Assembly (NCBI RefSeq): GCF_001553115.1
Contig: NZ_KQ960157.1
Span: 1-64,000, forward strand
Direction: 5' to 3'
DNA length: 64,000 nt
Source: Aedoeadaptatus coxii
GTDB lineage: Bacteria; Bacillota; Clostridia; Tissierellales; Peptoniphilaceae
The notes beneath the pieces were generated by a model that searched no databases, was not told where the DNA came from, and saw nothing but the letters and a program-made list of their open reading frames with translations. The stretch's first letter is position 1. The number at the start of each line of letters is the position of its first letter. Shown here piece by piece: positions 4,780 to 59,409 of this stretch. The position numbers and the translations under genes were made by a program.

Positions 4780-4810
4780 AAAACGCCCTCTTGCGAAGGC
4801 GTTTTGTTTT
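4780..4810 (-). terminator. Terminator of the amino-acid ABC operon
   Basis: AAAACGCC/GGCGTTTT stem with an inner TC/GA pair and T-rich flanks on both sides. It lies just after the ATPase stop codon and works as a minus-strand terminator, possibly in both directions. Confidence 0.7.
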
Positions 4811-4824
4811 TGGAAATTGTTTAT

Positions 4825-6122: not shown

Positions 6123-6145
6123 GCTTACCTCCTCAGGTTAATGGA

Positions 6146-6973
6146 TTAGTCGGCGAAATATTTTTGGTAAATTTCGTCGTAGGTTCCGTCGTCTCTTAGT
6201 TCTTTCATAGCCTTGTTGAGCGCATCCATAAGGGCGGTGTCGTCTTTACGCATGCCTACGGCAAATTTTTCTTCGCCGAAGTTGTCGTCCAAGACCTTGT
6301 AGTTTTCTTCGCCGTTTTGCTTCATGTAGTAGCGAGCGAGAACTTCGTCCACGACGATGGCGTCGCAGCGTTTGGCTTCGATATCCTTAAAGCATTCGGT
6401 GTTGGTTGCGTATTCTACCGGCGGTTCTGCCAGGGATTTTACAAATGCTTCGTCTTTATTGACAGCTTCCAGTGCAGAAGATTCGCCTTGTACTGTTACG
6501 CGCTTGCCGGCGAGATCCGCTTTGGAATTGACGGGAGAATCTTTCAGCGTCACGATGATTTGGCGGTTATCCATGTAGGGCTCCGAAAGTAATACTTTCT
6601 TTTCGCGCTCCGGTGTAATGGAGTAGCCGTTCCAGATCATGTCGATGTTGCCGCTTTCAAGTTCGCTTTCTTTCATGGTCCAATCGATGGCTTGACATTC
6701 CACTTTGATGCCGATTTTTTCGGCTACCTTATTGGCGAGGTCGACGTCGAATCCGACGAGATCGCCTTTTTCATCGCGGAAGCCCATGGGAGCGAAGGTA
6801 TCATCCATGCCGATGATGTAGGTTTTGGATTTGTCGATTTCTCCGGCATCGGCCGCTGCCGCGTTGCCGTTGTCTTTTGCGTTGTCGCCCGTGTTCGCTT
6901 TGTTCGCGCCTCCGGAACACGCCGTTAACAGCATGAGCATTAGAAGGGCGAGGCTAAGTATTTTCTTTTTCAT
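6146..6973 (-). CDS. Amino-acid ABC transporter substrate-binding lipoprotein
   Basis: A 275-residue family 3 solute-binding protein. The N-terminus is a lipoprotein signal with lipobox LTAC, lipidated Cys at residue 19, followed by a Gly/Asn/Ala/Asp-rich linker. The mature part starts at YIIGMDDTFAPMGFRDEKG, the hallmark first strand of the SBP_bac_3 fold, and continues with GFDVDLANKVAEKIG and the WNGYSITPEREKKV segment. It would capture a polar amino acid outside the membrane and deliver it to the permease downstream. A strong promoter precedes it. Confidence 0.93.
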   Translation of the reverse strand: MKKKILSLALLMLMLLTACSGGANKANTGDNAKDNGNAAAADAGEIDKSKTYIIGMDDTFAPMGFRDEKGDLVGFDVDLANKVAEKIGIKVECQAIDWTMKESELESGNIDMIWNGYSITPEREKKVLLSEPYMDNRQIIVTLKDSPVNSKADLAGKRVTVQGESSALEAVNKDEAFVKSLAEPPVEYATNTECFKDIEAKRCDAIVVDEVLARYYMKQNGEENYKVLDDNFGEEKFAVGMRKDDTALMDALNKAMKELRDDGTYDEIYQKYFAD

Positions 6974-7026
6974 TGTCTTGTCCTTTCGTTCTTTATCGCT
7001 TTATCTAACTAAATCATCTGTTTATT

Positions 7027-7055
7027 ATAATACCCTCTTCTCTATTTTTTGTAAA
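7027..7055 (-). promoter_or_regulatory. SigA-type promoter of the amino-acid ABC operon
   Basis: Minus strand: -35 TTTACA (7050-7055), 17-nt spacer, -10 TATTAT (7027-7032). Start of transcription expected near 7020, about 47 nt before the binding-protein ATG. Confidence 0.65.
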
Positions 7056-7115
7056 GGGTTATTTTGAATTAATATTGTATTCGTCGTTTTTGTTTGTCTC
7101 CTGAAAGGAGTTTTC

Positions 7116-8633
7116 ATGGACACCCATCAATTAAGTTCTTATCAAACCGGGCGCTTCCGTATTCATTTGGTTTTCGGCGGCGCGTTTGTCGGCTTGGCAT
7201 CGGGAATGATTTCCGTGCTTTACCGCTACACCCTCGGCCGATTGGATACGGTGCGCAATCTCATGTACAGCCACATGACCGTCGAAAAAGGCGCCCTTAT
7301 GCTGGCGGGCTTTTTGCTCCTCGCCTTTTTAATGCATCTCTTGCTCCGTTGGGCGCCCTTCAGCGGCGGCAGCGGCATTCCCCAAATTCGCGGCGAGCTT
7401 TTGGGAAAGGCGGATATCGAATCCACGCCTACGCTGATTTCCAAATTCTTCGGCGGCGCCATGGGCGCTTTTACCGGACTCACCCTCGGTCGGGAAGGCC
7501 CTTCGATTCAATTAGGGGGCACTCTCGCCAAAATGATTTCAAAGGGAATGAAGGCTTCTGAAATGGAGCGGCGCTATTTAATTACCGCCGGCGCATCGGC
7601 AGGACTCGCCGCCGCCTTTAACGCACCCCTCGCAGGCGCCCTCTTTGCCTTGGAAGAATTGCACAAGAGCTTTTCCCACTTTTTCGTCGTGCCTTGTATT
7701 GTGGCGTCGGTCCTCGCGAATTTCGTCAGCTTTTCGATTTTAGGTATGGAACCGGCCTTTTCCTTTCCCATGCACGAAATGCTGCCCATTTCCTTTTTCT
7801 GGGTACCTCTTTCCATCGGCGTTCTCGGCGGCATATTAGGTTCTCTCTTTAATAAGGGGCTGCTCTTTTTCAGCCAAAACATGAAAAAGCTCCCCATTCC
7901 ACGCTACGCTATTATTTTTATCGCCATGATCCTCGCCTTTTGCGTAGGCCTTTACTCCCCTCTTCTCTTAGGCGGCGGCCACGGATTAATCGAGCGTCTG
8001 GCCACCAAGCCCGTGGCGCCGACGGCCCTCGTGGTGTACTTCGCCATTCGCCTCCTTCTCGTGTGGACAGGCTACGGAAGCGGCGCACAAGGCGGTATTT
8101 TCCTTCCCGTACTCACGCTGGGCGCCCTCCTCGGCGCTTTTTGCCACAGCTTTATGATGGGCGGCGACGCATATTACCCGAACTTTTTATATTTAGGCAT
8201 GGCGGCCATTTTATCTTCCGTCGTGCAGGCGCCCCTTCTTTCCATTTTACTCGTATCGGAAATGAGCGGCACCATGATGCAGATGATTTCCGTCACCGCC
8301 ACCGCCGTAGTGGCTTATCTTGTGGCGCAGGTATTGAACAACGGCCCCATTTACGAATCCCTTTACGACAATATGTTTACAAAAGACGATCCCGTCGTAG
8401 ATTCCGGCTACACCATGCAATACTTTTTCGTGCCGGGGGATGCGGATTACGTCAACATTCCCCTGGAACGCCTTACCATTCCCCACCATCCTTTAATCGC
8501 ATCGGTGAAGCGAGAAGATAGGACCTTTACGCCTAATAAAGATACGATTTTGAAAGAAGGAGACGAGCTTCTCGTCCTTTCAAAAGAACAGTATCTTGAA
8601 GATTTAAGTCGGTATTTTGGAGATACGGAATGA
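7116..8633 (+). CDS. ClC-family chloride channel or H+/Cl- antiporter with RCK_C domain
   Basis: A 505-residue protein preceded by AAAGGAG. The ClC fingerprint is clear: GSGIP filter motif (about residue 85), GREGP with the gating glutamate (about residue 125), the FNAPLAGALFALEE helix holding the two acidic residues that match the internal proton-transfer site of exchangers, and GGIFLP near residue 330. The usual tyrosine after the EMTG-type motif is replaced by methionine (EMSGTMMQ). The last ~85 residues look like a TrkA-C/RCK_C ligand-binding domain. Both glutamates favour exchanger activity. It heads a coupled operon; its stop overlaps the next ATG (ATGA). Confidence 0.9.
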   Translation: MDTHQLSSYQTGRFRIHLVFGGAFVGLASGMISVLYRYTLGRLDTVRNLMYSHMTVEKGALMLAGFLLLAFLMHLLLRWAPFSGGSGIPQIRGELLGKADIESTPTLISKFFGGAMGAFTGLTLGREGPSIQLGGTLAKMISKGMKASEMERRYLITAGASAGLAAAFNAPLAGALFALEELHKSFSHFFVVPCIVASVLANFVSFSILGMEPAFSFPMHEMLPISFFWVPLSIGVLGGILGSLFNKGLLFFSQNMKKLPIPRYAIIFIAMILAFCVGLYSPLLLGGGHGLIERLATKPVAPTALVVYFAIRLLLVWTGYGSGAQGGIFLPVLTLGALLGAFCHSFMMGGDAYYPNFLYLGMAAILSSVVQAPLLSILLVSEMSGTMMQMISVTATAVVAYLVAQVLNNGPIYESLYDNMFTKDDPVVDSGYTMQYFFVPGDADYVNIPLERLTIPHHPLIASVKREDRTFTPNKDTILKEGDELLVLSKEQYLEDLSRYFGDTE

Positions 8634-9736
8634 AACGACTGATCCCTTTTTTACTCGCTCTTTTTCTTTTAACGGGCTGCGACGCGATTCAACCTCAATC
8701 GAAAGTTGATCCTTTGGTCTTCGGCATTTTCGAGCCGACCACGGGCATTTTCGGTGAAACCGGAGAGGAAACCCTTCGCGGCGCGAAACTTGCACAGGAT
8801 ATTCGCCCCGTGGCCCTCGGTAAAAAGATCGAGCTGAAACTTTACAACACCAAGAGCCAAAGTTTTGAGGCGGCCAACGGCGTCGCCTATTTAAGCGATC
8901 GGGGCGCCGTCGGGTTGATCGGCACCTTCGGCAGCGACAGCATGCAAATGGCGAGCCCCGTCATTAACGCGGCGAAAATTCCGACGGTCACGGGCTCCAC
9001 TTCGCCGAAACTTAAAGACAATTATTGGATTACCCAAATCAGCGTCAGCGACGACGAGCAGGCGCGGGCCATGGCGCGCTTCGCCGACGAAACGCTCCAC
9101 GTAAAAGATGTCGCCATTATGATCGATTCGGAAACTCTTTATGGCAACGAACTGGCCTATAGTTTTGAGCGGAATTTGCCGGATTACGTCAACGTCTACA
9201 AGGTGTTTTACCACACGGGAGAGAGCCGCTTTCACAACGAAATTCAGCGGCTGAAAAAACTCCCCGTCGATTCCGTTTATTGCCCCGGCAACAGTGCCGC
9301 CAGCGCCTACCTTGTGCGGGCAATTCGCACCGAATACCCGGACATTCCCATTATGGGCGGCGACCGCTGGGAAAATCCTTCCTTTAAAGCCTTAGGTAGA
9401 AAAGCCGTGGAGGGGGTATACTTTACCGCCCACTACGCCCGCTACGAAACCTTTAATATTGCATCGGACACCTTCCTTTCCCTCTATCGGGAAAAATACG
9501 GCAAAGAACCTACGAGCTACGCCGCCATCGGCTACGATGCTTACAATCTCCTTTACGACGCCGTCGTTAAAGGGGGAAAAGACGACCCGGCGGCCATGGC
9601 GCAGTATTTAAGGAAACAAGAATCCTTCGACGGGGCCTTGGGGATTAAAAAGCGGTTTACGACGAGAAGCGTCCCCATTTTACAGCAACAGGGAAGCCGC
9701 GGAAATTATGTGACGAGTGTGGAGGTGAGCCGATGA
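8630..9736 (+). CDS. Liv-type (Peripla_BP_6) ABC substrate-binding lipoprotein, orphan
   Basis: A 368-residue protein with a lipoprotein signal (lipobox LTGC, Cys at residue 17) and a type I periplasmic-binding fold of the Leu/Ile/Val-binding family: FGIFEPTTGIFGETGEETLRGAKLA start, GLIGTFGSDSMQMASPVI, then VTGSTSPKL, and a C-terminal YAAIGYDAYNLLYDAV. These proteins normally feed LivHMGF permeases or act as receptor domains. No such permease or ATPase lies near; it is sandwiched by 4-nt ATGA overlaps between the ClC gene and a small membrane-protein gene, so the three are made together. Function in this setting is unknown. Confidence 0.85.
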   Translation: MKRLIPFLLALFLLTGCDAIQPQSKVDPLVFGIFEPTTGIFGETGEETLRGAKLAQDIRPVALGKKIELKLYNTKSQSFEAANGVAYLSDRGAVGLIGTFGSDSMQMASPVINAAKIPTVTGSTSPKLKDNYWITQISVSDDEQARAMARFADETLHVKDVAIMIDSETLYGNELAYSFERNLPDYVNVYKVFYHTGESRFHNEIQRLKKLPVDSVYCPGNSAASAYLVRAIRTEYPDIPIMGGDRWENPSFKALGRKAVEGVYFTAHYARYETFNIASDTFLSLYREKYGKEPTSYAAIGYDAYNLLYDAVVKGGKDDPAAMAQYLRKQESFDGALGIKKRFTTRSVPILQQQGSRGNYVTSVEVSR

Positions 9737-46932: not shown

Positions 46933-47937
46933 TTAGAGTTGTTCGCTGAGTTCTCTTTCTTTGCGAACGAGTTCTTCAAGCTTGGGCACGATGGCGTTCA
47001 AGTCGCCGACGACGCCGAGGTCTGCAACATCGAAGATGGGTGCGCCATCGTCTTTGTTGACGGCGATGATGAGGTCGGAATCTTCCATACCTGCCAAGTG
47101 TTGGATGGCTCCGGAAATACCCAGTGCCAAGTAAAGTTCGGGACGTACGGTTTTACCGGTTTGTCCGACTTGTTGGGATTTTTCGATCCAGCCGGAGTCG
47201 ACGGCAGCTCTCGACGATGCGATTTCTGCGCCGAGTTCTTTTGCAAGGCCGTTTAATGCGTCGAAACCTTCCGGGCCGCCCATGCCGCGACCGCCGGAAA
47301 TAAGGATGTTGGCTTCGGTAATATCTTTTTTGGTGCTTTCAATTTTAAGCACTTCTCTTAAGTGAACGATAGGTTCTTTGTGAGAGAATTCAAATTTATC
47401 TTCGATGACTTCGCCGTCAGCCTTGTCAACTTCGATGCTGGGCATAACGCCGGGACGTACCGTCGCCATTTGGGGACGGAAGTTTTCGCAGACGATGGTG
47501 GCCATTAAGTTGCCGCCAAATGCCGGACGGGTCATCATAAGAAGTTTGCTTTCCGGGTCGATTTCAAGTTTTGTACAGTCGGCAGTAAGACCGGTGTGTA
47601 CGCGAGCGGCAAGGTTCGGCGCGAGGTCGCGACCGATGGAGGTAGCACCGAATAATACGATTTCAGGTTCGTATTTTTCGATGATGCCGTATACCATGTC
47701 GGCGTAATCTTCGCTTAAGTATTCTTTAAGTCTCGGATCTTCTACGACGATGACTTTATCAGCGCCGTGGCGGAATAGGATATTCGCTTCGCCTTTTACG
47801 TTTTCGCCGATTAACATGCCCACTACTTCTTGACCGAGGTCATCGGCAAGTTCACGTGCCTTACCGAGTAGTTCGATACCTACTTTTTCAAGTTTGTTAT
47901 CTCTTTGTTCGATAAATACGTATATATCTTTACTCAT
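46933..47937 (-). CDS. etfA: Electron transfer flavoprotein, alpha subunit
   Basis: A 334-residue Etf alpha subunit. The C-terminal FAD-binding domain is intact: SGGRGMGGPEGFDAL, GQTGKTVRPELYLALGISGAIQH and AVNKDDGAPIFDVADLGVVGDL. With EtfB and the adjacent acyl-CoA dehydrogenase it should carry electrons between NADH, ferredoxin and enoyl-CoA; homologous Acd/EtfAB complexes in amino-acid-fermenting clostridia bifurcate electrons to ferredoxin. Third gene of acd-etfB-etfA, 12 nt after etfB. Confidence 0.94.
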   Translation of the reverse strand: MSKDIYVFIEQRDNKLEKVGIELLGKARELADDLGQEVVGMLIGENVKGEANILFRHGADKVIVVEDPRLKEYLSEDYADMVYGIIEKYEPEIVLFGATSIGRDLAPNLAARVHTGLTADCTKLEIDPESKLLMMTRPAFGGNLMATIVCENFRPQMATVRPGVMPSIEVDKADGEVIEDKFEFSHKEPIVHLREVLKIESTKKDITEANILISGGRGMGGPEGFDALNGLAKELGAEIASSRAAVDSGWIEKSQQVGQTGKTVRPELYLALGISGAIQHLAGMEDSDLIIAVNKDDGAPIFDVADLGVVGDLNAIVPKLEELVRKERELSEQL

Positions 47938-47949
47938 TTGGTCCTCCCC

Positions 47950-48744
47950 TTAAATGATGTATTTTTCTTTTAATTTAGCAAGAATAGCTTGTGCAGCTTC
48001 ATCAGCGGATAAGTCTTTGAGTAATACGCCGGCAGCTTTTCCTTCTTTCGGGAAGGATTTTTTAACGCGGGTCGGCGATCCTTTTAGACCGATGTTCGAC
48101 AGGTCGAGTTTGTCTTCAATGTCTTTGAGGCCCCAAACGGTAATGTCTTTTTCTTGTGCTTCGTAAATGCCGCGAACGGTCATGTAACGAGGTTTAGCGC
48201 ATTCGGCAAGGGTCGTGATCAAAATCGGCATTTTTGCTTCTAAGATATGGTAACGATCTTCGAATTGACGTTTAACGATAACCTTGTCGCCTTCTACATC
48301 AACATCTTCAGCATAGGAGATGGCGGGAATTTCCAAGTGTCTTGCAATTTGAGGACCGACTTGTGCGGTGTCGCCGTCGATTGCTTGACGTCCTGCGATG
48401 ACCAAATCGTAGTCGATGTGTTCGATGGCGGCTGTAATCGTACAGGAAGTAGCCCACGTATCGGCACCACCGAAGGCTCTGTCACTTACGAGAATGGCTT
48501 CGTCTGCGCCCATGGCGAGGGCTTCGCGAAGTGCGTATTCCGCTTGGTTCGGACCCATGGAAAGAGCGTATACTTTTACGTTTTCGGGATCTTTATCCTT
48601 AATGCGAAGAGCAACTTCCAAGCCGGATAAGTCGTCCGGGTTGATAATACTGGGTACGCCTTCGCGGATCAATGTGTTGGTTTTCGGATCCAAGCGAACT
48701 TCGGTTGTGTCAGGTACTTGTTTAATACATACCACTATGTTCAT
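47950..48744 (-). CDS. etfB: Electron transfer flavoprotein, beta subunit
   Basis: A 264-residue Etf beta subunit: MNIVVCIKQVPDTTEVRLDP start, GADEAILVSDRAFGGADT and the AGRQAIDGDTAQVGPQIA nucleotide-binding motif. In bifurcating Etfs this subunit binds the second FAD that receives hydride from NADH. It lies between acd and etfA with short gaps, in the same order as in clostridial acd-etfBA clusters. Confidence 0.95.
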   Translation of the reverse strand: MNIVVCIKQVPDTTEVRLDPKTNTLIREGVPSIINPDDLSGLEVALRIKDKDPENVKVYALSMGPNQAEYALREALAMGADEAILVSDRAFGGADTWATSCTITAAIEHIDYDLVIAGRQAIDGDTAQVGPQIARHLEIPAISYAEDVDVEGDKVIVKRQFEDRYHILEAKMPILITTLAECAKPRYMTVRGIYEAQEKDITVWGLKDIEDKLDLSNIGLKGSPTRVKKSFPKEGKAAGVLLKDLSADEAAQAILAKLKEKYII

Positions 48745-48763: not shown

Positions 48764-49903
48764 TTATTTCAAAAGTTGACTGCCGATAACGAGAAGTTGA
48801 ATTTCGCTGGTACCTTCGTAAATAGAGGTAATGCGTGCATCTCTGTAAAGGCGTTCGATTTTGTAGTCTTTAATGTAGCCGTAGCCGCCGTGTACTTGAA
48901 GGGCGTCGTAGACGATTTCGTTACAGGTTTCGGAGCAGAAGTATTTTGCCATGGAGCAAATCTTCGATGCGTCTTCGCCTCTGTCTTTAGCAGCAGCTGC
49001 TTCGTAAACGAGGAGCTTGGCGGCTTCTAATTTAGCGGCCATTCTTGCAATTTTAAAGCTGATGCCTTGAAGTTTTGCAATGGGGCGACCGAATTGAACA
49101 CGTTCTTTAGCGAATTTAACAGCTTCATCGAGGGCAGCTTGTGCAATACCGATGGATTGAGCGGCAATACCGATACGGCCGACGTCTAAGGTCTTCATCG
49201 CGTTGGTAAAGCCCTTGCCTTCTTTGCCGAGCATGTTTTCTTTCGGTACGCGAACATTTTCGAGTACGATGTCGGAGGTGGGGCAGCCGATAATACCCAT
49301 TTTTTCTTCCGGTTTACCAAAGGAAACGCCTTCGCTCTTTAAGTCGACGATAAAGGCGGTAATGCCTGCGCTGCCTTTTGCGGTAAGGTCGGTTTTAGCG
49401 TAAATAATGCTGTAGTCTGCAATGGGTGCACCGGTAATGAAGGTTTTACGGCCGTTAAGAACCCATTCGTCTCCGTCTAATACAGCTGTAGTCTTGGTGC
49501 CGCCGGCATCGGAACCTGCACCCGGTTCGGTTAAGCCGAAGCAGAAGGTAAGTTCGCCGGTTGCGATCTTGCTTAAGTACTTTTCTTTTTGGTCGGGGGT
49601 ACCGCTTAGTTGAATCGGTGCCCCGCAAAGGGAGTTCGGGCTCGAAACGAAGACGCTGGCTACTGCGCTGCGTTTTGCGATTTCTTCCATGACGATAACG
49701 TAGGATACGTGATCCCCGCCTGCACCGCCGTATTCCTTCGGTGTCTTAATGCCGAAGAAACCCGCTTCGCCCATTTTACGAACGATGTCTAAATCGAGAC
49801 AACCCGTTTCTTCTGCTGCATCGAGTACGTCGTCGGTTAATTCTTGATCTGCAAATTTAGCAGCGAGATCGCGAATTAATTTGTGCTCTTGCTTAAATTC
49901 CAT
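48764..49903 (-). CDS. Acyl-CoA dehydrogenase (2-enoyl-CoA reductase direction)
   Basis: A 379-residue flavoenzyme. Signatures: FGLTEPGAGSDAGG (FAD/substrate region), FKIARMAAKLEAAK, QVHGGYGYIKDY and catalytic glutamate in SIYEGTSEIQ near the C-terminus. In this context it should reduce the 2-enoyl-CoA made by HadBC to the saturated acyl-CoA, with EtfAB as partner (the role of AcdB in C. difficile leucine fermentation). First gene of acd-etfB-etfA, with its own promoter and a GntR-type operator 170 nt upstream. Confidence 0.93.
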   Translation of the reverse strand: MEFKQEHKLIRDLAAKFADQELTDDVLDAAEETGCLDLDIVRKMGEAGFFGIKTPKEYGGAGGDHVSYVIVMEEIAKRSAVASVFVSSPNSLCGAPIQLSGTPDQKEKYLSKIATGELTFCFGLTEPGAGSDAGGTKTTAVLDGDEWVLNGRKTFITGAPIADYSIIYAKTDLTAKGSAGITAFIVDLKSEGVSFGKPEEKMGIIGCPTSDIVLENVRVPKENMLGKEGKGFTNAMKTLDVGRIGIAAQSIGIAQAALDEAVKFAKERVQFGRPIAKLQGISFKIARMAAKLEAAKLLVYEAAAAKDRGEDASKICSMAKYFCSETCNEIVYDALQVHGGYGYIKDYKIERLYRDARITSIYEGTSEIQLLVIGSQLLK

Positions 49904-50188: not shown

Positions 50189-51376
50189 TTAGCTGTAGTA
50201 TTTTTCCATCATTTCTTTGAAGACGGGGATGGATTTTTTGCAGGTTTCCGTATCGACGCAGTAGCTCAAACGCATGAATGCTTTGGAGCCGAATCCCGTG
50301 CCGGGTACGACGAGCATGTCGTATTCTTTTGCGCGATCGGAGAACGTTTCGCTGTCTCCGTCCGGAGATTTAATGAACAGGTAGAAAGCGCCTGCCGGTT
50401 TAGCGACTTGGTAGCCGATTTCGGTTAATGCGTCGAAGAGAAGGTCTCTGTTATTTTTGTAAACTTCTACGTCGGGTTCGACGTCGACGCAACGTTCGAT
50501 GACTTTTTGCATTAAGGTCGGTGCACATACATAGCCTAAGGAGCGGCCTGCACCACCGATAGCGGGCATTAAGTCTTTATCTTCTACGGAGCCGGGAACG
50601 AGGATGTAACCGATGCGTTCGCCGGGGAGAGATAAGGATTTCGACCAGCTGTAGCAAACGACGGTGTTGGCGTAAAGGCTGGGTACCCATGCTACTTCGG
50701 CATCGTCAACTAATACGAGTTCACGATAGGGTTCGTCACTTAAGATGTAAATGGGACGGCCGATTTCTTTGCTCTTCTTTTCGAGAACGGCTGCGAGTTC
50801 TTTTAATGCTTCTTTGGAGTAAATAACGCCTGCCGGATTGTTCGGAGTGTTGATCAAGACGGCACGTGTGTTTTTGGTAAGCACTTTTTCAACGTCTTCT
50901 GCGTGAAGTTGCATATCATCGCGCGCTTCGACGAGTACCATTTTTCCGCCTTGGCTTTCGATGAAGACGGTGTATTCGGGGAAGAAGGGAGCCAATACGA
51001 CGATTTCGTCGGTCGGTTCTTCGATAAGGGCTGCAAGGGAAATGCTCAAGGATGCAGCTGCACCGCAGGTCATGTAAAGGTTGCTTGCATCGTAATCGGT
51101 GCCGTAGCGTTTGTTTAGGTTATCGGCAATGGCTTGACGTGTAGATTCAAAACCGTTACCTGCCGAGTAGCTGTGAACTGCTTGAGGTGCTTGATTTTGG
51201 GTTAAATCGACGATAGCGTCTTGTACTGCTTTCGGTGCGGGAACGCTGGGGTTACCGATGGAGAAGTTTAATACATTTTCAGGTCCTACAACTTTTGCAC
51301 GTTCTGCGCCAAATCCTGCGAGTTCGCGAATAATGGATTTTTGTTTGCCGAGGGATGTCATTCTTTTGTTCGCCAT
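50189..51376 (-). CDS. Class I/II PLP-dependent aminotransferase of the Had operon
   Basis: A 395-residue aminotransferase related to aspartate/aromatic enzymes: VLNFSIGNPSVPAPKAV, TCGAAASLSISLAAL, INTPNNPAGVIYSKEAL and PLP lysine in YSWSKSLSLPGERIGYI. As the last gene of the Had operon it most likely performs the first step, turning the fermented amino acid into its 2-oxo acid. Separated from brnQ by a 33-nt gap and followed by a terminator. Confidence 0.9.
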   Translation of the reverse strand: MANKRMTSLGKQKSIIRELAGFGAERAKVVGPENVLNFSIGNPSVPAPKAVQDAIVDLTQNQAPQAVHSYSAGNGFESTRQAIADNLNKRYGTDYDASNLYMTCGAAASLSISLAALIEEPTDEIVVLAPFFPEYTVFIESQGGKMVLVEARDDMQLHAEDVEKVLTKNTRAVLINTPNNPAGVIYSKEALKELAAVLEKKSKEIGRPIYILSDEPYRELVLVDDAEVAWVPSLYANTVVCYSWSKSLSLPGERIGYILVPGSVEDKDLMPAIGGAGRSLGYVCAPTLMQKVIERCVDVEPDVEVYKNNRDLLFDALTEIGYQVAKPAGAFYLFIKSPDGDSETFSDRAKEYDMLVVPGTGFGSKAFMRLSYCVDTETCKKSIPVFKEMMEKYYS

Positions 51377-51409: not shown

Positions 51410-52786
51410 CTATGCGTTCTCTTGAAGTTCTTTTGCACGTTTTTCTTCGCGGATAGCTTGTTCGCGATAAACATCGTCGCGGGTGCCGCCGAAGTTTGCA
51501 AATTTACCGAGTAGGCCACCGATTACAGCACAGATAAGTGCGGGGATGAGCCATTCAAATGCAAAGTTTCCTAAGGGGAATGCGGAGACTGTTTTTGCGA
51601 GGCTTCCCAATGCGTCGCCGCCTTGCATTTGAGAGAAGAGGTTGATCGCTTCGATAATGCCGATGACACCTGCGCCGAAGACGCCGCCGATGAATACGCC
51701 ATTGTACTTGATCTTTTTGTCAAAGATGGAGAAGAGAATTAAGCAGATGACGATGGGGAATACGGCTGTCAGTACGGGGACTGCAATTTTAATGATGCCT
51801 TCTACGCCGAGTAGGGAGATGGCAAAAGCGACGAGAGTAGCGACGATAACCACATTGCGATAGGAAAGTTTTCCGTTGGTAACATCACTAAAGAAGTTGC
51901 CGCAAGTGGAGATGAGACCTGTGGATGTCGTCAAGCATGCGAGGGCAACGCCTAAGCCGAGTAAGAAGCGGCCTACATTGCCGAGTAATGTTTCGACGGT
52001 GCCGAGTAAGATGGCGGTACGGTCCATATCCGGTGTAAACATGGAGCTTACAGTGGATCCGACATAGGTTAAGGAGCCGTATACAAGTGCCAAGCAGATG
52101 AAGGCGATGATACCGATCATAATGCTTGCTTTAACTTGTGTCGCTTCGTCGTGATAACCTCTACGAATAAGGTCGGTTAAGACGATACCACTCATTAGGG
52201 ATGCGCCGAGGGCGTCCATGGTTTGATAACCTTCTTTAAAACTCATTTTAAAGAGTTCCGGTGTGTCAGTTGTAATAGCGGCTGCCGGCGGATTGACGAC
52301 GGCAACGACGGTAATAACGGCCAAGATAATGAGTAGGCCCGGTGTTAAGAATTGACCGATGTAGTCGAGTACTTTACCGGGATTCAATACGAGGTAAAGA
52401 GTAAGTCCGAAGAATACAACGGATGTAACGATAACGGGAACGGCGGGAAGGTTCGGTGCCACGAACATTTCGTGGGTCGTTGCGCCTGTTCTCGGTACGG
52501 CAAAGAAGGGGCCGATAATCAAGATACAAATGGCGGAGATGACCGCTGAGAATTTCCAGCCGACCCGTTTACCGAGGTCGATGGCGCGTCCACCGAGTTG
52601 TGCCGTTACGATAACACCCAAAATGGGAAGTACGGGGTCGGACATGAGGAATCCGAATGCCGCTGTAAACCAACGGTCGCCGGAGAGTACGCCCAGGTAG
52701 GGCGGGAAGATCATATTGCCTGCGCCGAAGAAAATGGCGAACAGAGCAAAACCACAGACGATGATATCTTTTCTTTTAATTTCCAT
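51410..52786 (-). CDS. brnQ: Branched-chain amino acid carrier (BrnQ/LIVCS family)
   Basis: A 458-residue permease with about twelve membrane segments. LIVCS hallmarks are GFALFAIFFGAGNMIFPPYLG at the N-terminus and IGPFFAVPRTGATTHEMF near residue 85. It imports leucine, isoleucine or valine with Na+ or H+. The ATG at 52786 follows AAGGAG by 5 nt; a GTG two codons upstream falls within that site. Its place in the Had operon is the main hint that a branched-chain amino acid is fermented. Confidence 0.93.
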   Translation of the reverse strand: MEIKRKDIIVCGFALFAIFFGAGNMIFPPYLGVLSGDRWFTAAFGFLMSDPVLPILGVIVTAQLGGRAIDLGKRVGWKFSAVISAICILIIGPFFAVPRTGATTHEMFVAPNLPAVPVIVTSVVFFGLTLYLVLNPGKVLDYIGQFLTPGLLIILAVITVVAVVNPPAAAITTDTPELFKMSFKEGYQTMDALGASLMSGIVLTDLIRRGYHDEATQVKASIMIGIIAFICLALVYGSLTYVGSTVSSMFTPDMDRTAILLGTVETLLGNVGRFLLGLGVALACLTTSTGLISTCGNFFSDVTNGKLSYRNVVIVATLVAFAISLLGVEGIIKIAVPVLTAVFPIVICLILFSIFDKKIKYNGVFIGGVFGAGVIGIIEAINLFSQMQGGDALGSLAKTVSAFPLGNFAFEWLIPALICAVIGGLLGKFANFGGTRDDVYREQAIREEKRAKELQENA

Positions 52787-52834
52787 AAGCACTCCTTCGT
52801 CCTTTCGGACGTTTGTGACTAGTCTTTAGTTGGA

Positions 52835-53824
52835 TTAGAGACCGTTTACGATGTTAATGGGTTTTTCTCCATCTTCGATGCGCTTCATGTTGTCGTAAGA
52901 CCATTGGCTCATACGCATGAAGGAGTCGTCGGTGGTGCCGGCAATGTGAGGCGTAATGGAGAAACGTGCCAAGCCGGTTTCGTTTAAGTGGAACAAGGGA
53001 TCGTCATCCTTCGGGGGTTCCGGAGCGATAACGTCTATTGCGGCGAAGATCTTGCCGGCATTCAATGCGTCCGCTACATCGGCGTTGTTCATTAAGTCGC
53101 CGCGAGCGACGTTGACGATAATAGCGTCTTGTTGCATTTTGTCGATGGCTTCTTTATTGATCATGCCGCGTGTGGAATCGAGTACGGGGACGTGGTAGGA
53201 AATAATATTGCATTTTTCGTAAATTTCGTCGAGGCTTGCGTATTCAACGTTGAATTCTTTTTCGAAAGCTTCTTGACGAACGACGTCATAGTAGTACATT
53301 TTGCAGTCAAAGGGTTGTAAGAGTTTGGCAGCTTCGTGGCCGATGGCGCCGAGACCGATGAGGCCGATGACGCGGGAACCCATTTCGGTTTGTCCTTTTT
53401 CGGTAAATTCTTTGTAGCTTTCTTTAAAGCCTTCAGCGCCTTTTTCTTTGATCTTCATATCGGCTTCGGGCATTCTGCGAAGACTGGTTAACATGTGGGC
53501 AACGGCAAGTTCCGCTACGGGGCGAGCGTTTACGCCGCGGTTATTACATACGTAGATTCCTTTGGCTTTTGCTGCTTCAAGGTCGATTTTGTCGAAGCCT
53601 ACGCCTAAAGATTGGATAAGTTTTACATTTTCCAATTTGTCGATAACGTCTTTACGGATAAAGTCTACGGGGCCACAGTGGATAACGTCTGCATCTTTGC
53701 ATTGTTCGACTAATTCTTCGTCGCTGCAAGGATAGTTGATGTATTGGTAATCCCATTCAGCCGGTCTTTCCACGCCGAATTTTTCAACATAGTTCTTGTT
53801 ACAGGTACTTCTGATTTTTAACAT
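52835..53824 (-). CDS. D-2-hydroxyacid dehydrogenase
   Basis: A 329-residue NAD-dependent dehydrogenase. GLIGLGAIGHEAAKLL is the nucleotide-binding loop; catalytic Arg in VNVARGDL, Glu in DVIAPEPP and His in TPHIAGTT are all present. In this operon it should reduce the 2-oxo acid to the (R)-2-hydroxy acid, the substrate of HadA. Its N-terminal and central blocks look more like phosphoglycerate/glycerate-type dehydrogenases than the D-lactate dehydrogenase-type LdhA of C. difficile, so it may be a non-orthologous replacement. Confidence 0.9.
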   Translation of the reverse strand: MLKIRSTCNKNYVEKFGVERPAEWDYQYINYPCSDEELVEQCKDADVIHCGPVDFIRKDVIDKLENVKLIQSLGVGFDKIDLEAAKAKGIYVCNNRGVNARPVAELAVAHMLTSLRRMPEADMKIKEKGAEGFKESYKEFTEKGQTEMGSRVIGLIGLGAIGHEAAKLLQPFDCKMYYYDVVRQEAFEKEFNVEYASLDEIYEKCNIISYHVPVLDSTRGMINKEAIDKMQQDAIIVNVARGDLMNNADVADALNAGKIFAAIDVIAPEPPKDDDPLFHLNETGLARFSITPHIAGTTDDSFMRMSQWSYDNMKRIEDGEKPINIVNGL

Positions 53825-53951: not shown

Positions 53952-55070
53952 TTAGATCATGTCTGCAAAAGTTTGTAATGCAGTTTTGGCTTGTTCGAAG
54001 CTGACCATTTGTTGGTCGACTTCCACCATGTTCATGGGGATGTGTTCTTTTTGAAGATCGTCGCGAAGGATCGGGTAATCGAACTCGTCGGTGTCGCTGA
54101 ATTTGGTCATTAAGTAAATGACGCCGGCGGCTCCCGATTCTTTTACTTTCTTCGCAATAATCGGTCCTCTTAATTTCTTTTCATCGAATACGAAGGTATT
54201 GCCTTCGATATCGGCGAAAACTTGTGCCAATGCGCGGAGGGGATTGCCCGTTCCTTCTTTGGCTTGAACTTCATATTGTAAACTTTCGTGTAGTACATTG
54301 TCATCGACGATGCCGAAGCCGAATTCTTCGAAGATCTTTAGAATGTCTTCGCTGTTGACGAGAATACCGGTGGTGACGACTTTTTTACCTTTGAAGTCTT
54401 CTTCCGGCATGGCTTTCAATGCTTCGTTGATTTCCTTTACTTTTGCAAGGTGTTCGTCTTTTGCGTAGCAATATGCACTGGAGAAGACGCGGTTGCGAAG
54501 TAGAGGCGTTACGGTGTTTAAGTGTTTGGCAGCCAAGGCGCTAAATTCGAGCATGGCTTTTCTATGTTCGTTATAAAGCTTAATGGCTTCTTCGATCGCG
54601 TCGTCGGAAATATCGTTTCCGGCGATTTTGGCCAGGTTATCTCTTAAGTGAGCGAATTGACGCGCATTGTATTCGATACCCGCTTCGATCTTACGGTTTT
54701 GACCGTAGGGAATGTAGAGCATGGGTACTTGAGGAATGGCGCGTTTCCAGTTTTGACTGAAACCTTTTAAGCCGTCGCTTAAATTGGTAATGAGCATGCC
54801 GGAAAGTTTATCTAATTTGCCTTGAAGACCCAAGTCCATGGTTCTCAAGATAATGGATGCGTAGAATGCCGGGAAGTATTCCTTCGCTTCTACAACTTCG
54901 CCTTCGGCGCCCCAAATGGTAACGGGTACGAGGCCTGCTGCGTGAATAATTTCTTCGGGTACGACGCCCGGAGCGGAAATACCGATTACTTTTTTGCCTT
55001 CATCCACATAGTGATCGATGGCTTTTAATACATCTGTATTTAATGCTTGAATAAGATCTACCGCTGTCAC
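53952..55070 (-). CDS. hadC: 2-hydroxyacyl-CoA dehydratase, HadC-like subunit without cluster cysteines
   Basis: A 372-residue HgdB/HadC-family subunit: VVPEEIIHAAGLVPVTIWG, FSQNWKRAIPQVPMLYI, QNRKIEAGIEY, EHRKAMLEF, EVDQQMVSFEQAKTALQTFADMI. Relatives in this family carry conserved cysteines in the PEEIIHAAG strand, in FPAF-C-S, in CDTL before the QNW motif and in MMKFCDP. Here these positions are Val, Ala, Ser (LSDGLKG) and Ser (MTKFSDT); the whole protein has a single cysteine (AYCYAKDEH), which is not at a ligand site. The frame is uninterrupted and the length normal. It should pair with HadB, encoded 2 nt upstream. Confidence 0.92.
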   Translation of the reverse strand: MTAVDLIQALNTDVLKAIDHYVDEGKKVIGISAPGVVPEEIIHAAGLVPVTIWGAEGEVVEAKEYFPAFYASIILRTMDLGLQGKLDKLSGMLITNLSDGLKGFSQNWKRAIPQVPMLYIPYGQNRKIEAGIEYNARQFAHLRDNLAKIAGNDISDDAIEEAIKLYNEHRKAMLEFSALAAKHLNTVTPLLRNRVFSSAYCYAKDEHLAKVKEINEALKAMPEEDFKGKKVVTTGILVNSEDILKIFEEFGFGIVDDNVLHESLQYEVQAKEGTGNPLRALAQVFADIEGNTFVFDEKKLRGPIIAKKVKESGAAGVIYLMTKFSDTDEFDYPILRDDLQKEHIPMNMVEVDQQMVSFEQAKTALQTFADMI

Positions 55071-55072
55071 TT

Positions 55073-56335
55073 TTATGCCTCCTTAGATTTCTTTTGTTTG
55101 TTGGCTTCCATAACTTCGATAAGGCCTTGAACACGGGTGTCGTATTGTGCCTCGGAGAAGTTTCTCGGGTCGGCTTGGTCGCCGTCGAAGGTTGCCGTCG
55201 GGAGGCCGGTCTTTTCTCTGAAATCTCTTTCCATTTCGTAGGAAATAGCACTCCATTGTTTGCAGGAACGGTTAATGTGAACGAGCATGCCGTCGACATT
55301 GTTGTTTTCCGCAAGTTTCAAGCGCATATCGAGGGCGCGTTCGTAGCTGATGGCATTGGGTGTTGCACAGTAAGCTTCCATGAGCTCTCTCGTGTTGTTG
55401 TAAACATAACCGAATGCATCGGCATAAACGGTGCCGACGACGTTGACGCCTTGGCCTTGAAGGCCTTTATAGGTGTGACGAAGGTGGGGCCAGCAAGCGA
55501 TACCTTCGAAGATGATGCGGTATTTTTCTTCGCCTTTAAATCCGGATTCGCCTCTTTTAACTTTTTCGTCGAATTCTTCGGCTAAGCGTTCAAACGCGAT
55601 GGCCGATTCCAATTTACCTCTCGCACAAACGGCAACGGCCATGTGGTTGAAAATATCAAATCCACTGAAGGGAGAGGGGGTGTATTTGGAATAAGACGTA
55701 GCGTCGAGCCAGGCTCTACCGGTTCTATCGGAGATTTCCATGACTTCTTCGAATTTGTCTTGATCCCATTTTTTGCCGGAAATTTCTTCCAGTTGTTTAA
55801 TGGCAACGTCGAATTGTCCCTTTAAATAGTCGACGCGGTCTTGGCCGGCATCGTATTCGTTGTTATAGGGAACGTCGATCATAATAAAGGGTACGTTTAA
55901 ATCTCTCGCGAGATTTTCATACCATTTGATCATGCAGTTACAGATATTGTTGCAGCAAGCGACAAAATCCGGTTGGGGCATGTTGAGTTCGGGGATGTCG
56001 GTTTCTTCCGTGTACGCCATGGAAATTCTCGCATAGGCGCAGATGTCGTTGGAATAACCGCTATCTTCCGCTACATTACACATTCTTTCCCCGCCGCCTT
56101 TAGCCGATACGGCTGCCGCGTGGTTTTCCGGATAGACGACCTTAATGTCCAATGTTTCCAGAATTTCTTGGGGGAAGTTCGATGCACACCAACCTACAGG
56201 TTCGCCGGCTTCTTTTGCCGCCATGGCATCTTTATAGCCTTGGCCGGCAATCATGCCGATCATTTTAGCAGGGGGCACATCTTTGTATTGCTCTCTTATT
56301 TGGGCTTCTCTTTCTTTTAACGATTCTTTAGACAT
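55073..56335 (-). CDS. hadB: 2-hydroxyacyl-CoA dehydratase, HadB-like (cluster-bearing) subunit
   Basis: A 420-residue subunit; ATG at 56335 after AAGGAAGG, although the frame is open 22 codons further. Cysteine-rich, as expected for the catalytic [4Fe-4S] subunit: GWCASNFPQEIL, RMCNVAEDSGYSNDICAYAR, ACCNNICNCMIKWYE, GIACWPHLRH and NRSCKQWS. Binds the 2-hydroxyacyl-CoA and performs the radical (ketyl) dehydration after one-electron activation by HadI. Encoded between hadI (13-nt gap) and hadC (2-nt gap). Confidence 0.93.
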   Translation of the reverse strand: MSKESLKEREAQIREQYKDVPPAKMIGMIAGQGYKDAMAAKEAGEPVGWCASNFPQEILETLDIKVVYPENHAAAVSAKGGGERMCNVAEDSGYSNDICAYARISMAYTEETDIPELNMPQPDFVACCNNICNCMIKWYENLARDLNVPFIMIDVPYNNEYDAGQDRVDYLKGQFDVAIKQLEEISGKKWDQDKFEEVMEISDRTGRAWLDATSYSKYTPSPFSGFDIFNHMAVAVCARGKLESAIAFERLAEEFDEKVKRGESGFKGEEKYRIIFEGIACWPHLRHTYKGLQGQGVNVVGTVYADAFGYVYNNTRELMEAYCATPNAISYERALDMRLKLAENNNVDGMLVHINRSCKQWSAISYEMERDFREKTGLPTATFDGDQADPRNFSEAQYDTRVQGLIEVMEANKQKKSKEA

Positions 56336-56348
56336 ACTCAATCCTTCC

Positions 56349-57134
56349 TTAACTCTGTTTTTTGCATTCTTCAAAGGCATAGAGTGCGGCGCCGAAGGCA
56401 CCTGCTAATTGGGAATCCTTTGAAACTTTAATTTCGCAGTCCAACTCGTTTTCCAATGCCCGTACAATGCCGGGATTTTTAGAAACACCGCCGGTCATGG
56501 CGACGGGCTTTTTCAAGCCGACCCGCCGTGCAAGACCTGCGACTTTAGTAGCGACGGAAGCGTGAATACCGCGCACGATGTTTGGAATCGAAATATCTTT
56601 CGCCAGGGCCGAAATAACCTCCGACTCGGCGAAGACCGTACAAGTCGAACTGATGGAGGCTTTTTCCGTCGCCTGTGCATCCAGCGTTCCTAAATCATCA
56701 ATGCTCACATCTAATACATTGGCCATAACTTCGAGAAAGCGTCCGGTGCCTGCGGCACATTTGTCGTTCATTAGGAAGTTTTGCAGCATACCGTCTCGAA
56801 TAGCTAATGCCTTAATATCTTGGCCGCCGATATCCACAATGGTTCCAATGTCGCCGAAGAGATAAACTCCACCCTTTGCGTGACAACTTAACTCGCTCAT
56901 GGTTTTGTCGGCATCTTTAAAAGAATTTCTGCCGTAACCCGTCGCGACAATATAGTCGATCTCCTCGCGCTTGATGCCGGTTTTATCGAGTACTAACTCG
57001 ATGACCTGTTTGGCACCTGTCGTGCCGGCGCCAAGACTTACCACTTCTTTTGCCAAGACATCTACTCCGTTTTTCAAAATTACGGCCTTTGAAGACGTGG
57101 AGCCGATGTCGATGCCCATGGTTATAATATCCAC
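56349..57134 (-). CDS. hadI: 2-hydroxyacyl-CoA dehydratase activator (archerase ATPase)
   Basis: A 261-residue ASKHA-fold ATPase that injects one electron into the dehydratase with ATP hydrolysis. Phosphate-binding GIDIGSTSSKAVIL, VDIGGQDIKALAI, and both cysteines that bridge the dimer [4Fe-4S] cluster: NDKCAAGTGRFLE and SSTCTVFAESEV. C-terminal GGVSKNPGIVRALE completes the fold. Of normal length for the family; between hadA and hadB as in C. difficile. Confidence 0.95.
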   Translation of the reverse strand: MDIITMGIDIGSTSSKAVILKNGVDVLAKEVVSLGAGTTGAKQVIELVLDKTGIKREEIDYIVATGYGRNSFKDADKTMSELSCHAKGGVYLFGDIGTIVDIGGQDIKALAIRDGMLQNFLMNDKCAAGTGRFLEVMANVLDVSIDDLGTLDAQATEKASISSTCTVFAESEVISALAKDISIPNIVRGIHASVATKVAGLARRVGLKKPVAMTGGVSKNPGIVRALENELDCEIKVSKDSQLAGAFGAALYAFEECKKQS

Positions 57135-57164: not shown

Positions 57165-58403
57165 CTATTTTTCTTCCCATTCGTAGGCAATTTTGTTTTC
57201 GTACAGTTCGCCGATCTTCTTGTCGTCGTAGCCGAGTTCTTTGAGAATTTCGGTGGTGTGTTCGCCGATGAGCGGGCCCTTTTCGTAAGGCGTCTTGCCC
57301 ATTTCGGTGTAGCGAACCGGTTGATTGACGAGAATACGTTCGCCACTGGGGTATTCCATCTTGCGGAAGCAGTCGTTAGCCCAAGCTTGTTCGTCTTCGA
57401 GAATTTCTTCCCAGTTTTGAGCGAGTGCGAAGGGGATGTCCGCTTCTGTTAAGATTTCTTTCCATTCGGCGTAATCTTTGGTTCCGAAACGTTCCATGAT
57501 GACGTCGTAAAGGTGAGAACCTAATTTGTTTTCAATTAAGTTTTGAACCGGGAAATAACGATCGTCGTTTAAATACTCCGTAAGACCGAGTGCCGTCATG
57601 AATTTTTCGAAATACGTGTTGTAGTCCGGCATACAGGTTTGAACGTAGCGTTCATCTTTACTTCTCCAGCAAGCCAAGAAGGGATTCGGAGATTCTTTAA
57701 TGTTGATCGGGTATTTTTCACCGTGATCGGTGTATTGAGCAGCTTGAACCATCATGCCCATGTTGAAAATAGCAGTTTCAAACAAGCTGGTTTCAACTTT
57801 TTCGCCTTTGCCCGTCATTTTTGCGTGGTAAAGAGCAGCTAAAATACCGGCTGCAAGGTTCATACCGACGTTGTGGTCGCCTACGCCAGGAACGACGTTC
57901 ATGGGTACGCCGTCACGTTGTCTCAAGGTTTCGAGGTAACCGCCCCGTGCAAAGAACGAGGTAAAGTCAAAACCGGGAAGGTTTTTGTCCGGTCCGAATT
58001 CGCCGTAACCTGTACACATACCGTAAACAAGTTTCGGGAATTTTTCCTTTAACGTATCGTAATCGAGTCCTGCTTTTTCGAGGGCCTTCGTACGCCAGTT
58101 TGTAATTAAGACATCGGCATCTTCAAGTAACTTAAAGAGGATTTCTTTTCCTTCTTCACCGCGGGTGTCGATGGAGATACATCTCTTGTTTCCGTTTTCA
58201 AGTTCCCACGTCGTGTTTTCATACATGTCCAAAGGTCTTCCTTCGGAAGGAGCAGTGTAACGCAAGGGGTCGCCGCCGGAACGTTCAACCTTAATAACGT
58301 CTGCGCCCAAGTCGGCTAAGAAACGTCCGGTTGTAGCAGCTGCAATAAATGTAGCCAACTCGACAACCTTTACACCTTCCAAAAGTTTTCTGCTTTCTGT
58401 CAT
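57165..58403 (-). CDS. hadA: 2-hydroxyacyl-CoA transferase (class III, CaiB/BaiF family)
   Basis: A 412-residue class III CoA-transferase that moves CoA from the product acyl-CoA to the (R)-2-hydroxy acid. Typical blocks: KVVELATFIAAATTGRFLADLGADVIKVE, GNKRCISIDTRGEEGKEILFKLL, NWRTKALEKAGLDY, MCTGYGEFGPDKNLPGFDFTSF (the aspartate of GFD lies in the catalytic region). ATG after GAAAGGATGG. Follows gntR by 74 nt with no terminator, so gntR and hadA are probably co-transcribed. Confidence 0.93.
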   Translation of the reverse strand: MTESRKLLEGVKVVELATFIAAATTGRFLADLGADVIKVERSGGDPLRYTAPSEGRPLDMYENTTWELENGNKRCISIDTRGEEGKEILFKLLEDADVLITNWRTKALEKAGLDYDTLKEKFPKLVYGMCTGYGEFGPDKNLPGFDFTSFFARGGYLETLRQRDGVPMNVVPGVGDHNVGMNLAAGILAALYHAKMTGKGEKVETSLFETAIFNMGMMVQAAQYTDHGEKYPINIKESPNPFLACWRSKDERYVQTCMPDYNTYFEKFMTALGLTEYLNDDRYFPVQNLIENKLGSHLYDVIMERFGTKDYAEWKEILTEADIPFALAQNWEEILEDEQAWANDCFRKMEYPSGERILVNQPVRYTEMGKTPYEKGPLIGEHTTEILKELGYDDKKIGELYENKIAYEWEEK

Positions 58404-58477: not shown

Positions 58478-59143
58478 CTACTCGAAAAAATTTGTAAACT
58501 CCGGATCATCCACGACCATTCCGTGCACCGTATTAATGTGAACATCTGTCGCCAATAATGCGGCGTCGAGATCGTTGGATTTCACGGCCTCCAAAATTTT
58601 TTCGTGCTGCTCGACAAGCGTCGCCAGATAGACGCCGCTGTCCACGTAAATATTACGCCAACGCGCAATATGAAGAAGATGCTGATCCAGTAAATGAAGA
58701 ATGTCTTCGGAATCATTGCCCGCGAGAATATAATTGTGAAACTGCTCGTCTAAGAGACGAAACTTTTCCACGTATTTTTTCTCGCCCTCAAACTGACGCT
58801 GCTTTTGAAGATTCAGTTCCATCTTCCCGATCGTGTCCTCTTTTAAAATAGGCCCCGCCATAAAACGTCTCAGAACTTCTTTTTCTACTGCTGCACGGAT
58901 GAATAATGCCTTTTGTATGTAGTTTAAGTTCACGAGACTGACGTAGGTGCCCCTTTGGGGATACACTTTCAAGAGATTACTTTCAACTAATCGAGCAAAA
59001 GCTCCGCGAACGACGGATCTCGATACATTATACTCGGCGCTGACAGCGTTTTCGCTAAGCTGCATGCCCGGATATAGGGACAGATCAATTATTCGTCGGA
59101 GCAAGTCGTCATATAAAGCATAAGAATTCATCTTCATTTCCAC
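58478..59143 (-). CDS. GntR-family regulator with FCD domain
   Basis: About 221 residues. The start is taken as GTG (59141-59143), 6 nt after AAGGAG; an ATG two codons later is possible, and the frame is open another 17 codons upstream through the operator. N-terminal winged helix-turn-helix (LLRRIIDLSLYPGMQLSENAVSAEYNVSRSVVRGAFARLVESNLLKVYPQRGTYVS); C-terminal FCD domain with the metal-ligand pattern DEQFHNYIL, VEQHEKILEAV and DVHINT. Such regulators sense organic acids or CoA-pathway intermediates. The same 12-bp palindrome lies at its own promoter, at the divergent ligase and at acd, so it probably autoregulates and controls the Had pathway. Confidence 0.9.
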   Translation of the reverse strand: MEMKMNSYALYDDLLRRIIDLSLYPGMQLSENAVSAEYNVSRSVVRGAFARLVESNLLKVYPQRGTYVSLVNLNYIQKALFIRAAVEKEVLRRFMAGPILKEDTIGKMELNLQKQRQFEGEKKYVEKFRLLDEQFHNYILAGNDSEDILHLLDQHLLHIARWRNIYVDSGVYLATLVEQHEKILEAVKSNDLDAALLATDVHINTVHGMVVDDPEFTNFFE

Positions 59144-59155
59144 ACCCGTCTCCTT

Positions 59156-59175
59156 CTTGTGTACTAGTCTACTAT
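59156..59175 (-). promoter_or_regulatory. GntR-type operator before gntR-had
   Basis: CTTGTGTACTAG (59156-59167) directly upstream of the gntR ribosome binding site, continued by GTCTACTAT (59167-59175). A weak promoter (TTCTTG, 17 nt, TAGTAG) would place the start inside it. Confidence 0.7.
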
Positions 59176-59409
59176 TTCGTAAAAACAATTGCAAGAAGAT
59201 TTTCTAAAAATTAACAAACAAGGATTTTCTTAAGTTATACTTTATATGTGTCTTTCTAATCCCTAAAATTACAACTTTATATAGGTTTTTAATCTTTCAG
59301 AATAAAATCTCCTTCACGGGTTGATCTGTGAAATGCTTTTCCTCGTTTTGTTATTATTTTATTTCATTTTCTTTTTTTTCGCAAATTTCCTCGTTTGTTT
59401 TTTTACATT
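59176..59409. other. AT-rich divergent intergenic region
   Basis: About 235 nt between the gntR operator and the ligase promoter; very AT-rich, no coding frame and no strong inverted repeat. Probably upstream promoter sequence only. Confidence 0.5.

Follow-up and report, generated by a model that had tools for sequence, protein, structure and literature searches.

Loss of the beta-cluster cysteines in a HadC-type 2-hydroxyacyl-CoA dehydratase subunit of Aedoeadaptatus coxii and in its relatives

A had-type operon and its beta subunit

The window, the 64,000-nucleotide stretch of Aedoeadaptatus coxii contig NZ_KQ960157.1 analysed here, carries on its minus strand an operon in the order GntR regulator, hadA-like, hadI, hadB, hadC, D-2-hydroxyacid dehydrogenase, brnQ, aminotransferase, acdB-like, etfB and etfA. 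It begins with a GntR/FCD-family regulator (58478-59194; PF00392, PF07729) and a family III CoA-transferase in the hadA role (57165-58403; PF02515). These are followed by a hadI-like activase (56349-57134; over the TIGR00241 cut-off), a hadB-like gene for the alpha subunit (55073-56401) and a hadC-like gene for the beta subunit of a 2-hydroxyacyl-CoA dehydratase (53952-55070). Beyond hadC lie a D-2-hydroxyacid dehydrogenase in the ldhA role (52835-53824; PF02826, PF00389), a BrnQ-type branched-chain amino acid carrier (51410-52792; over the TIGR00796 cut-off), a PLP-dependent aminotransferase (50189-51376; over the NF005305 cut-off), a member of the acyl-CoA dehydrogenase/enoyl-CoA reductase family in the acdB role (48764-49903; PF00441, PF02770, PF02771) and the electron-transfer flavoproteins EtfB (47950-48744; PF01012) and EtfA (46933-47937; PF01012, PF00766). 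Judged from BrnQ and the operon, the dehydratase is probably of a branched-chain amino acid type. As called, hadB starts at GTG 56401 and shares about 50 bases (56349-56401) with the end of hadI; its true start likely lies further inside, at MSKESLKE.

The hadC reading frame is intact from its GTG start at 55070 to its stop at 53952. As a reading made from the sequence alone had reported, the 372-residue product holds a single cysteine (Cys201), within AYCYAKDEH. It scores 230 bits against PF06050 (2-hydroxyacyl-CoA dehydratase, D component; curated cut-off 28.4), and its best solved relative by phmmer is C. difficile HadC (3o3m_B, E 1.6e-90, query 18-371). The AlphaFold2 model, with a mean pLDDT of 96.5, superposes on 3o3n_B with a Z of 54.2 and 1.1 Å over 368 residues at 41% identity, so that on the predicted structure the protein has the HadC/HgdB fold. 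The C. difficile (R)-2-hydroxyisocaproyl-CoA dehydratase HadBC and its activase HadI (3o3m, 3o3n and 3o3o) share fold and partners with the window system, and a C. difficile-type HadBC locus (L083) has a similar operon, although the window differs in placing ldhA, brnQ and the aminotransferase between hadC and acdB.

Narrower family models describe the window protein less well. Against the HadC equivalog NF052456 it reaches 377.1 bits, below the curated 700; L083 scores 727.3, and L088, which bears all three cluster cysteines, also stays under the cut-off at 611. The double-cubane cluster protein (NF040772) and the class I benzoyl-CoA reductases BzdNO and MbdNO are predicted to share the fold (7yzm_A and 6eno, and 8s02_B and 9g87_B, respectively), and the latter also have an alpha-type subunit with one catalytic [4Fe-4S] cluster. 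Double-cubane proteins carry double-cubane clusters, however, whereas window HadC has one cysteine and, at 94.7 bits, stays below the 350-bit cut-off. For the benzoyl-CoA reductase models it scores 123.8 against 421.15 bits (TIGR02263) and 67.5 against 453.8 (TIGR03190), and at the six cysteine positions that hold the [8Fe-9S] cluster of BzdN (PMC11971306) the alignment finds none of the six in window HadC.

To place the cluster ligands we used those given for BzdN (Cys36, 73, 100, 263, 293 and 327) and BzdO (Cys95, 128 and 380) in PMC11971306. C. difficile HadC Cys72, Cys99 and Cys325 align with BzdN Cys73, Cys100 and Cys327 and are for this reason taken as ligand positions, while HadB residues 84, 117 and 346 align with the three BzdO ligands (printed residue counts in this alignment run a few too low past inserts, where extra letters are dropped). 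Aligned with C. difficile HadC, the window protein has Ala71 (codon GCA, 54858-54860) for Cys72, Ser98 (AGC, 54777-54779) for Cys99 and Ser325 (AGC, 54096-54098) for Cys325, all on the minus strand, as is Gly123 (GGT, 54702-54704), which stands in place of C. difficile Pro124. All three beta-cluster cysteines required of a standard beta subunit are absent, and we therefore class HadC, on these residues, as a variant of the dehydratase beta subunit and not as the standard subunit of a two-cluster enzyme. It very probably carries no [4Fe-4S] cluster. The sequence-only reading had proposed four lost ligands, of which these three stand; the fourth, in the PEEIIHAAG strand (Val37, Cys38 in C. difficile), is rejected as a conserved ligand: of 108 HadC-like proteins, 66 retain the complete triad but just 9 have cysteine at that position.

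The partners tell a different story, as that reading had also held. HadB keeps Cys121, Cys154 and Cys380 (numbered from GTG 56401), and HadI keeps Cys126 and Cys165, the pair that is invariant among HadI-like proteins. Window HadC is accordingly encoded beside an alpha subunit with three cluster cysteines and an activase with both of its invariant ones.

The gene is under purifying selection and is not decaying, which confirms the earlier view of it: dN/dS of hadC is 0.06-0.17 over 15 pairs within the genus, synonymous differences being large in many of them. In the four pairs shared by both genes, dN of HadC is about twice that of HadB.

A second hadC paralogue supplying the subunit had been named as grounds for abandoning the reading. 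The genome (1.84 Mb, 99% complete) encodes three PF06050 proteins, namely HadB, HadC and a double-cubane protein, and the PF06050 scan found no cysteine-bearing paralogue of HadC type. The third member, on another contig and beside a BadF-type activase gene, scores 490 bits against NF040772 (cut-off 350); rescue by a HadC paralogue is rejected on this ground. At its locus (L139, G000:C2:10000-20000) the protein occupies ORF 3961-5127 on the minus strand, with the activase-type gene adjoining. Elsewhere in the genome (L140, G000:C30:31000-42000), ORF 4450-8742 encodes a fused activase-type protein of 1431 aa with two BadF/BcrA ATPase stretches and a DUF2229.

The cysteine triad among relatives

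The window locus is 94% identical to that of P. nemausensis and 76% to that of A. ivorii. Six of the eight genomes of the genus contain hadC, all with Ala/Ser/Ser; the other two (G004 and G006) gave no match to HadC at E 1e-20, and the system is therefore not essential to the genus. The same three residues thus recur in five further hadC-bearing genomes of the genus and in another family, which refutes a sequencing or assembly error; an alignment error hiding the cysteines elsewhere is countered by the whole of window HadC containing one cysteine. We give artefacts of either kind next to no chance.

HadC-like proteins turned up in 49, 34 and 19 genomes of overlapping samples from the family (130 genomes), the class (391) and the phylum (398), respectively (E limits 1e-40, 1e-40 and 1e-60). 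Among the 108 proteins fetched, the triad reads Cys/Cys/Cys in 66, Tyr/Asp/Asn in 27, Ala/Ser/Ser in 13, and Pro/Thr/Ser and Pro/Ser/Ser in one each. Replacement is all-or-nothing, with 42 proteins fully replaced and none partially. The 66 include remote relatives such as the double-cubane protein of the window genome. The count sets aside L026-L030 (same genomes as L077-L081), L123 (a cut contig) and ORFs of at most 300 aa or with low scores; eight weak places of the class sample, with E of 1e-41 to 1e-46, were left unfetched (G183, G206, G303, G326, G420, G511 and the second hits of G270 and G356).

The partner proteins are uniform across these loci. The ligand columns of HadB-like proteins are cysteine in 100/100, 100/100 and 99/100 rows (one gap), and both cysteines of the HadI-like pair are kept in 100/100. 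At the 42 loss-type loci the alpha gene is present in all 42 and the HadI gene in 40.

By genome (n = 90), 50 hold Cys/Cys/Cys proteins only, 32 replaced ones only and eight both; the window genome counts among the eight, its Cys/Cys/Cys entry being the double-cubane protein. A cluster-free beta subunit occurs in 34 of the 49 family genomes with a match, in 13 of 25 class genomes at E 1e-60 or better, and in 1 of the 19 phylum-sample genomes with a match, namely the window genome itself, so that in these samples some families show the state often and genomes outside them rarely. Besides the window genome, 39 have a cluster-free beta subunit, and 17 of these were scanned for PF06050. In 12 the cluster-free pair or pairs were the sole members above the cut-off. 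The remaining five (G002, G003, G007, G133 and G317) have one or two further members scoring 375-419 bits, close to the window double-cubane protein (380).

The three ligand columns were left out of tree building. In a quick tree of 100 rows, from which nine remote or cut loci were left out (L127, L128, L131-L134, L138, L139 and L141), the lost/kept label needs four changes and the starred branches alone force four, with long branches flagged, L072 and L099 among them. A more careful tree of 45 rows, hand-chosen from 109 with long branches left out, gave no long-branch warning and again needs four changes (5-95% range 4-4 over 200 bootstrap trees). Since three cysteines are presumably much harder to regain than to lose, we read the four changes as losses. 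The first (i) unites the window genus, a second genus (L062) and five genomes (L082 and L084-L087, perhaps Peptostreptococcus) of the family of L083, whose own HadC is 97.5% identical to the C. difficile PDB chain. The second (ii) comprises L063 and L072, the third (iii) is L099, and the fourth (iv) is the Tyr/Asp/Asn clade. Whether relatives share the loss had been posed as a check on the window enzyme; they do, but what had been taken for a trait of one enzyme recurs across whole clades and arose four times on these trees.

Outside the window's family, four of the five clade (i) loci are ordered hadA-hadI-hadB-hadC-acdB-etfB-etfA-ldhA; in L085 HadI was not detected and brnQ takes the place of ldhA. 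Peptostreptococcus anaerobius makes isocaproate (PMC9241533), and a cluster-free enzyme may be its source; four of these five genomes also contain a second locus with Cys/Cys/Cys, and that second dehydratase could account for the product.

Two observations concern single genomes. G013 has two different dehydratase operons (L062 and L063), both with cluster-free beta subunits and in separate loss clades. G138, of the window's family, contains broken hadC-like copies with internal stops (L124, G138:C36; L123, G138:C8) beside intact ones, reflecting either duplication or an assembly artefact.

Tyr/Asp/Asn subunits and glutamate fermentation

Clade (iv) differs from the others in its gene neighbourhood. 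In 26 of 27 Tyr/Asp/Asn loci hadI-hadB-hadC has a carboxyl-transferase gene nearby, the exception (L124) being a short contig; the gene is absent from all 15 loss-type loci of other kinds and present in 11 of 63 triad-bearing loci. In the three such loci tested with Pfam (L042, L039 and L051) PF01039 was confirmed; the nearest NCBIfam model, mmdA, scores far under its cut-off, and we take the gene to encode the alpha subunit of glutaconyl-CoA decarboxylase (gcdA-like), and the beta subunits of clade (iv) to be the HgdB of glutamate fermentation. The 27 Tyr/Asp/Asn rows and 11 triad-bearing rows form one starred group of 38 in the 100-row tree. As 11 triad-bearing loci have the carboxyl-transferase, not every such HgdB has lost its cluster.

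By tblastn the same type was reached in Fusobacterium vincentii (NZ_CP084075.1) at 76% identity. Its operon encodes two CoA-transferase subunits, the carboxyl-transferase, a glutamate symporter, an activase, HgdA and HgdB; HgdB reads Tyr/Asp/Asn, HgdA has all three cysteines, and the whole record holds no PF06050 protein beyond these two. Proteus mirabilis NZ_OL790811.1, found in the same search, keeps Cys/Cys/Cys. The F. vincentii record (L142) is labelled as plasmid pSB055A of strain SB055, yet it spans 2.1 Mb with a core fermentation operon and is almost surely a chromosome mislabelled in the plasmid collection; the P. mirabilis records NZ_OL790811/812 (4.1 Mb) look likewise mislabelled.

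HgdAB of this kind parallels the window enzyme in that F. vincentii HgdB and the 27 beta rows in the window's family lack the triad while the alpha cysteines are kept, and differs from it in being a separate loss, to Tyr/Asp/Asn and not to Ala/Ser/Ser. F. nucleatum and P. asaccharolyticus are named as users of the 2-hydroxyglutarate pathway (PMC8473912), and an F. nucleatum strain presumably has the same HgdB as F. vincentii. Because the F. vincentii record encodes no other beta subunit of this kind and F. nucleatum runs the pathway, cluster-free beta subunits probably work, and the Fusobacterium case is, as we see it, the strongest sign that they are active.

This evidence bears on the reading of window HadC as a relic, or as a protein with another function, dehydration then falling to HadB, either unaided or paired with a different beta subunit. 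Its twofold nonsynonymous rate relative to HadB and the two genus genomes without a match would suit a relic. Against it we set the dN/dS of 0.06-0.17, the alpha gene at every loss-type locus and the HadI gene at nearly all, the lack of any other HadC-type protein in the window genome and of an alternative PF06050 protein in F. vincentii, and we hold it to be very improbable.

A probable one-cluster dehydratase

In two reviews, which letter the subunits differently, the activase shoots an electron into the cluster of one subunit and the electron then moves on to the catalytic cluster; the first, non-catalytic cluster stores the electron between turnovers, the two lying 12 Å apart (PMC8473912, PMC11574389). 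We consider that the window enzyme is probably a working 2-hydroxyacyl-CoA dehydratase with one cluster in place of two, its HadB being loaded without a beta relay. HadI would take an electron from reduced ferredoxin, dock on the HadB-HadC dimer, as we suppose, and, driven by ATP, deliver the electron to the HadB [4Fe-4S] cluster with no stop on a HadC cluster; HadB would then form the ketyl radical, expel water and regain the electron. HadC would keep its fold, build the dimer and supply half of the surface on which HadI docks, while ceasing to hold the electron between turnovers. On the same reading the window HadBC is presumably catalytically active. Direct passage from HadI to the HadB cluster is the simplest route because the relay cluster is missing, and a good deal speaks for its being the one used; the beta cluster, described as the electron relay of the enzyme, seems dispensable.

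HgdAB of A. fermentans carries one cluster and that of C. symbiosum two. The one-cluster A. fermentans enzyme would be a biochemical precedent.

Several points run counter to the one-cluster reading. Both reviews place electron entry and rest on the non-catalytic cluster, and one gives 2-hydroxyglutaryl-CoA dehydratase a [4Fe-4S] cluster on three cysteines per subunit (PMC8473912); that statement names no species, and taken for Fusobacterium it contradicts the reading of the Tyr/Asp/Asn HgdB. Cys-to-Ala variants of the related BzdNO, aimed at removing single clusters, were unstable (PMC11971306), and cluster loss is therefore not free. The loss appears in just 1 of the 19 phylum-sample genomes.

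Serine and aspartate can ligate iron, if more rarely (PMC11574389), and a weakly held cluster would also speak against one-cluster chemistry. HadC might on this basis still bind [4Fe-4S] through oxygen ligands, Ser98 and Ser325, together with non-protein ligands: two of its three positions are serine, and the review that puts a cluster in each 2-hydroxyglutaryl-CoA dehydratase subunit (PMC8473912) would agree. Across the losses, however, Ala, Tyr or Pro occupies position 72, and 27 rows have Asn at position 325, which leaves few plausible ligands, and the triad goes as a whole, never singly. We judge an oxygen-ligated cluster decidedly unlikely.

The sequence-only reading made HadC purely structural, which goes further than these data. 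The site may instead have taken on a new role, as the replacing residues are fixed in two large clades: the triads are invariant in 12/12 rows of the main Ala/Ser/Ser clade and in 28/28 Tyr/Asp/Asn rows including Fusobacterium. The position of C. difficile Pro124 is proline in 67/67 triad-bearing rows, the C. difficile reference included (58/58 of tree rows), and Gly or Ala in 39 of 42 lost rows, a change that covers both large loss clades and amounts to two tree events; L063, L072 and L099 keep the proline. Pro327 is changed in 41/42 lost rows, as against 3/58 kept tree rows (9/67 kept in the wider set). For P124, P327, R265, D259 and C291 all independent pairs that differ do so in one direction with respect to the loss, although four pairs are too few. 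Fixed residues and proline changes would fit either a repacked empty site or a new ligand in it.

In the second case the HadC site would hold another redox cofactor, for example a flavin, and the electron would still pass through HadC, with the fixed Ala/Ser/Ser or Tyr/Asp/Asn and the Pro-to-Gly/Ala change lining the pocket. The invariant triads and the Pro124 change, seen in both large loss clades and in 0/58 triad-bearing tree rows, are consistent with this; so are the title of Klees et al. 1992, cited in PMC7033586, which calls the F. nucleatum dehydratase an iron-sulfur flavoprotein, and the flavin reported in some dehydratases (PMC11574389). Yet 158 and 162 of 348 columns (45-47%) are invariant in those clades anyway, which makes three fixed columns weak evidence; the Pro124 link is two events (sign test p 0.5), three loss-type proteins keep the proline, and the review assigns the flavin to HgdA, the other subunit (PMC11574389). 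A replacement cofactor is thus possible but unlikely.

Returning to the one-cluster reading and to the family as a whole, we lean towards the view that the beta cluster is not core to the family and has been discarded at least four times, the whole triad each time, and that one-cluster archerase dehydratases run leucine-type and glutamate fermentations, the electron passing directly or via a replacement group. If so, electron storage on the beta cluster, a view drawn from two-cluster enzymes, would be an optional elaboration, and natural enzymes without the non-catalytic cluster make the storage claim testable. The family has been proposed to derive from a double-cubane ancestor by sub-cluster loss (PMC11971306), a series in which loss of the beta cluster would be a further step, and natural cluster-free HadC/HgdB proteins could supply the single-cluster material that the unstable BzdNO variants could not. 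Among the literature matches listed, whose coverage leaves out most subscription papers, no description of lost HadC/HgdB cysteines or of their repeated origin appears; such absence is no proof of their being unpublished.

The alpha subunits were compared column by column between loss-type and triad-bearing loci. No compensating change in HadB was found among these columns, none of those at least 85% conserved in triad-bearing loci dropping below 20% in any loss group; this counts against the one-cluster reading. An extra set of HadB cysteines for a second cluster is rejected, there being no column common to all loss clades and absent elsewhere. Several alpha columns do carry cysteine preferentially in a single loss clade, for example 35 and 119 in the Ala/Ser/Ser clade and 315 in the Tyr/Asp/Asn clade.
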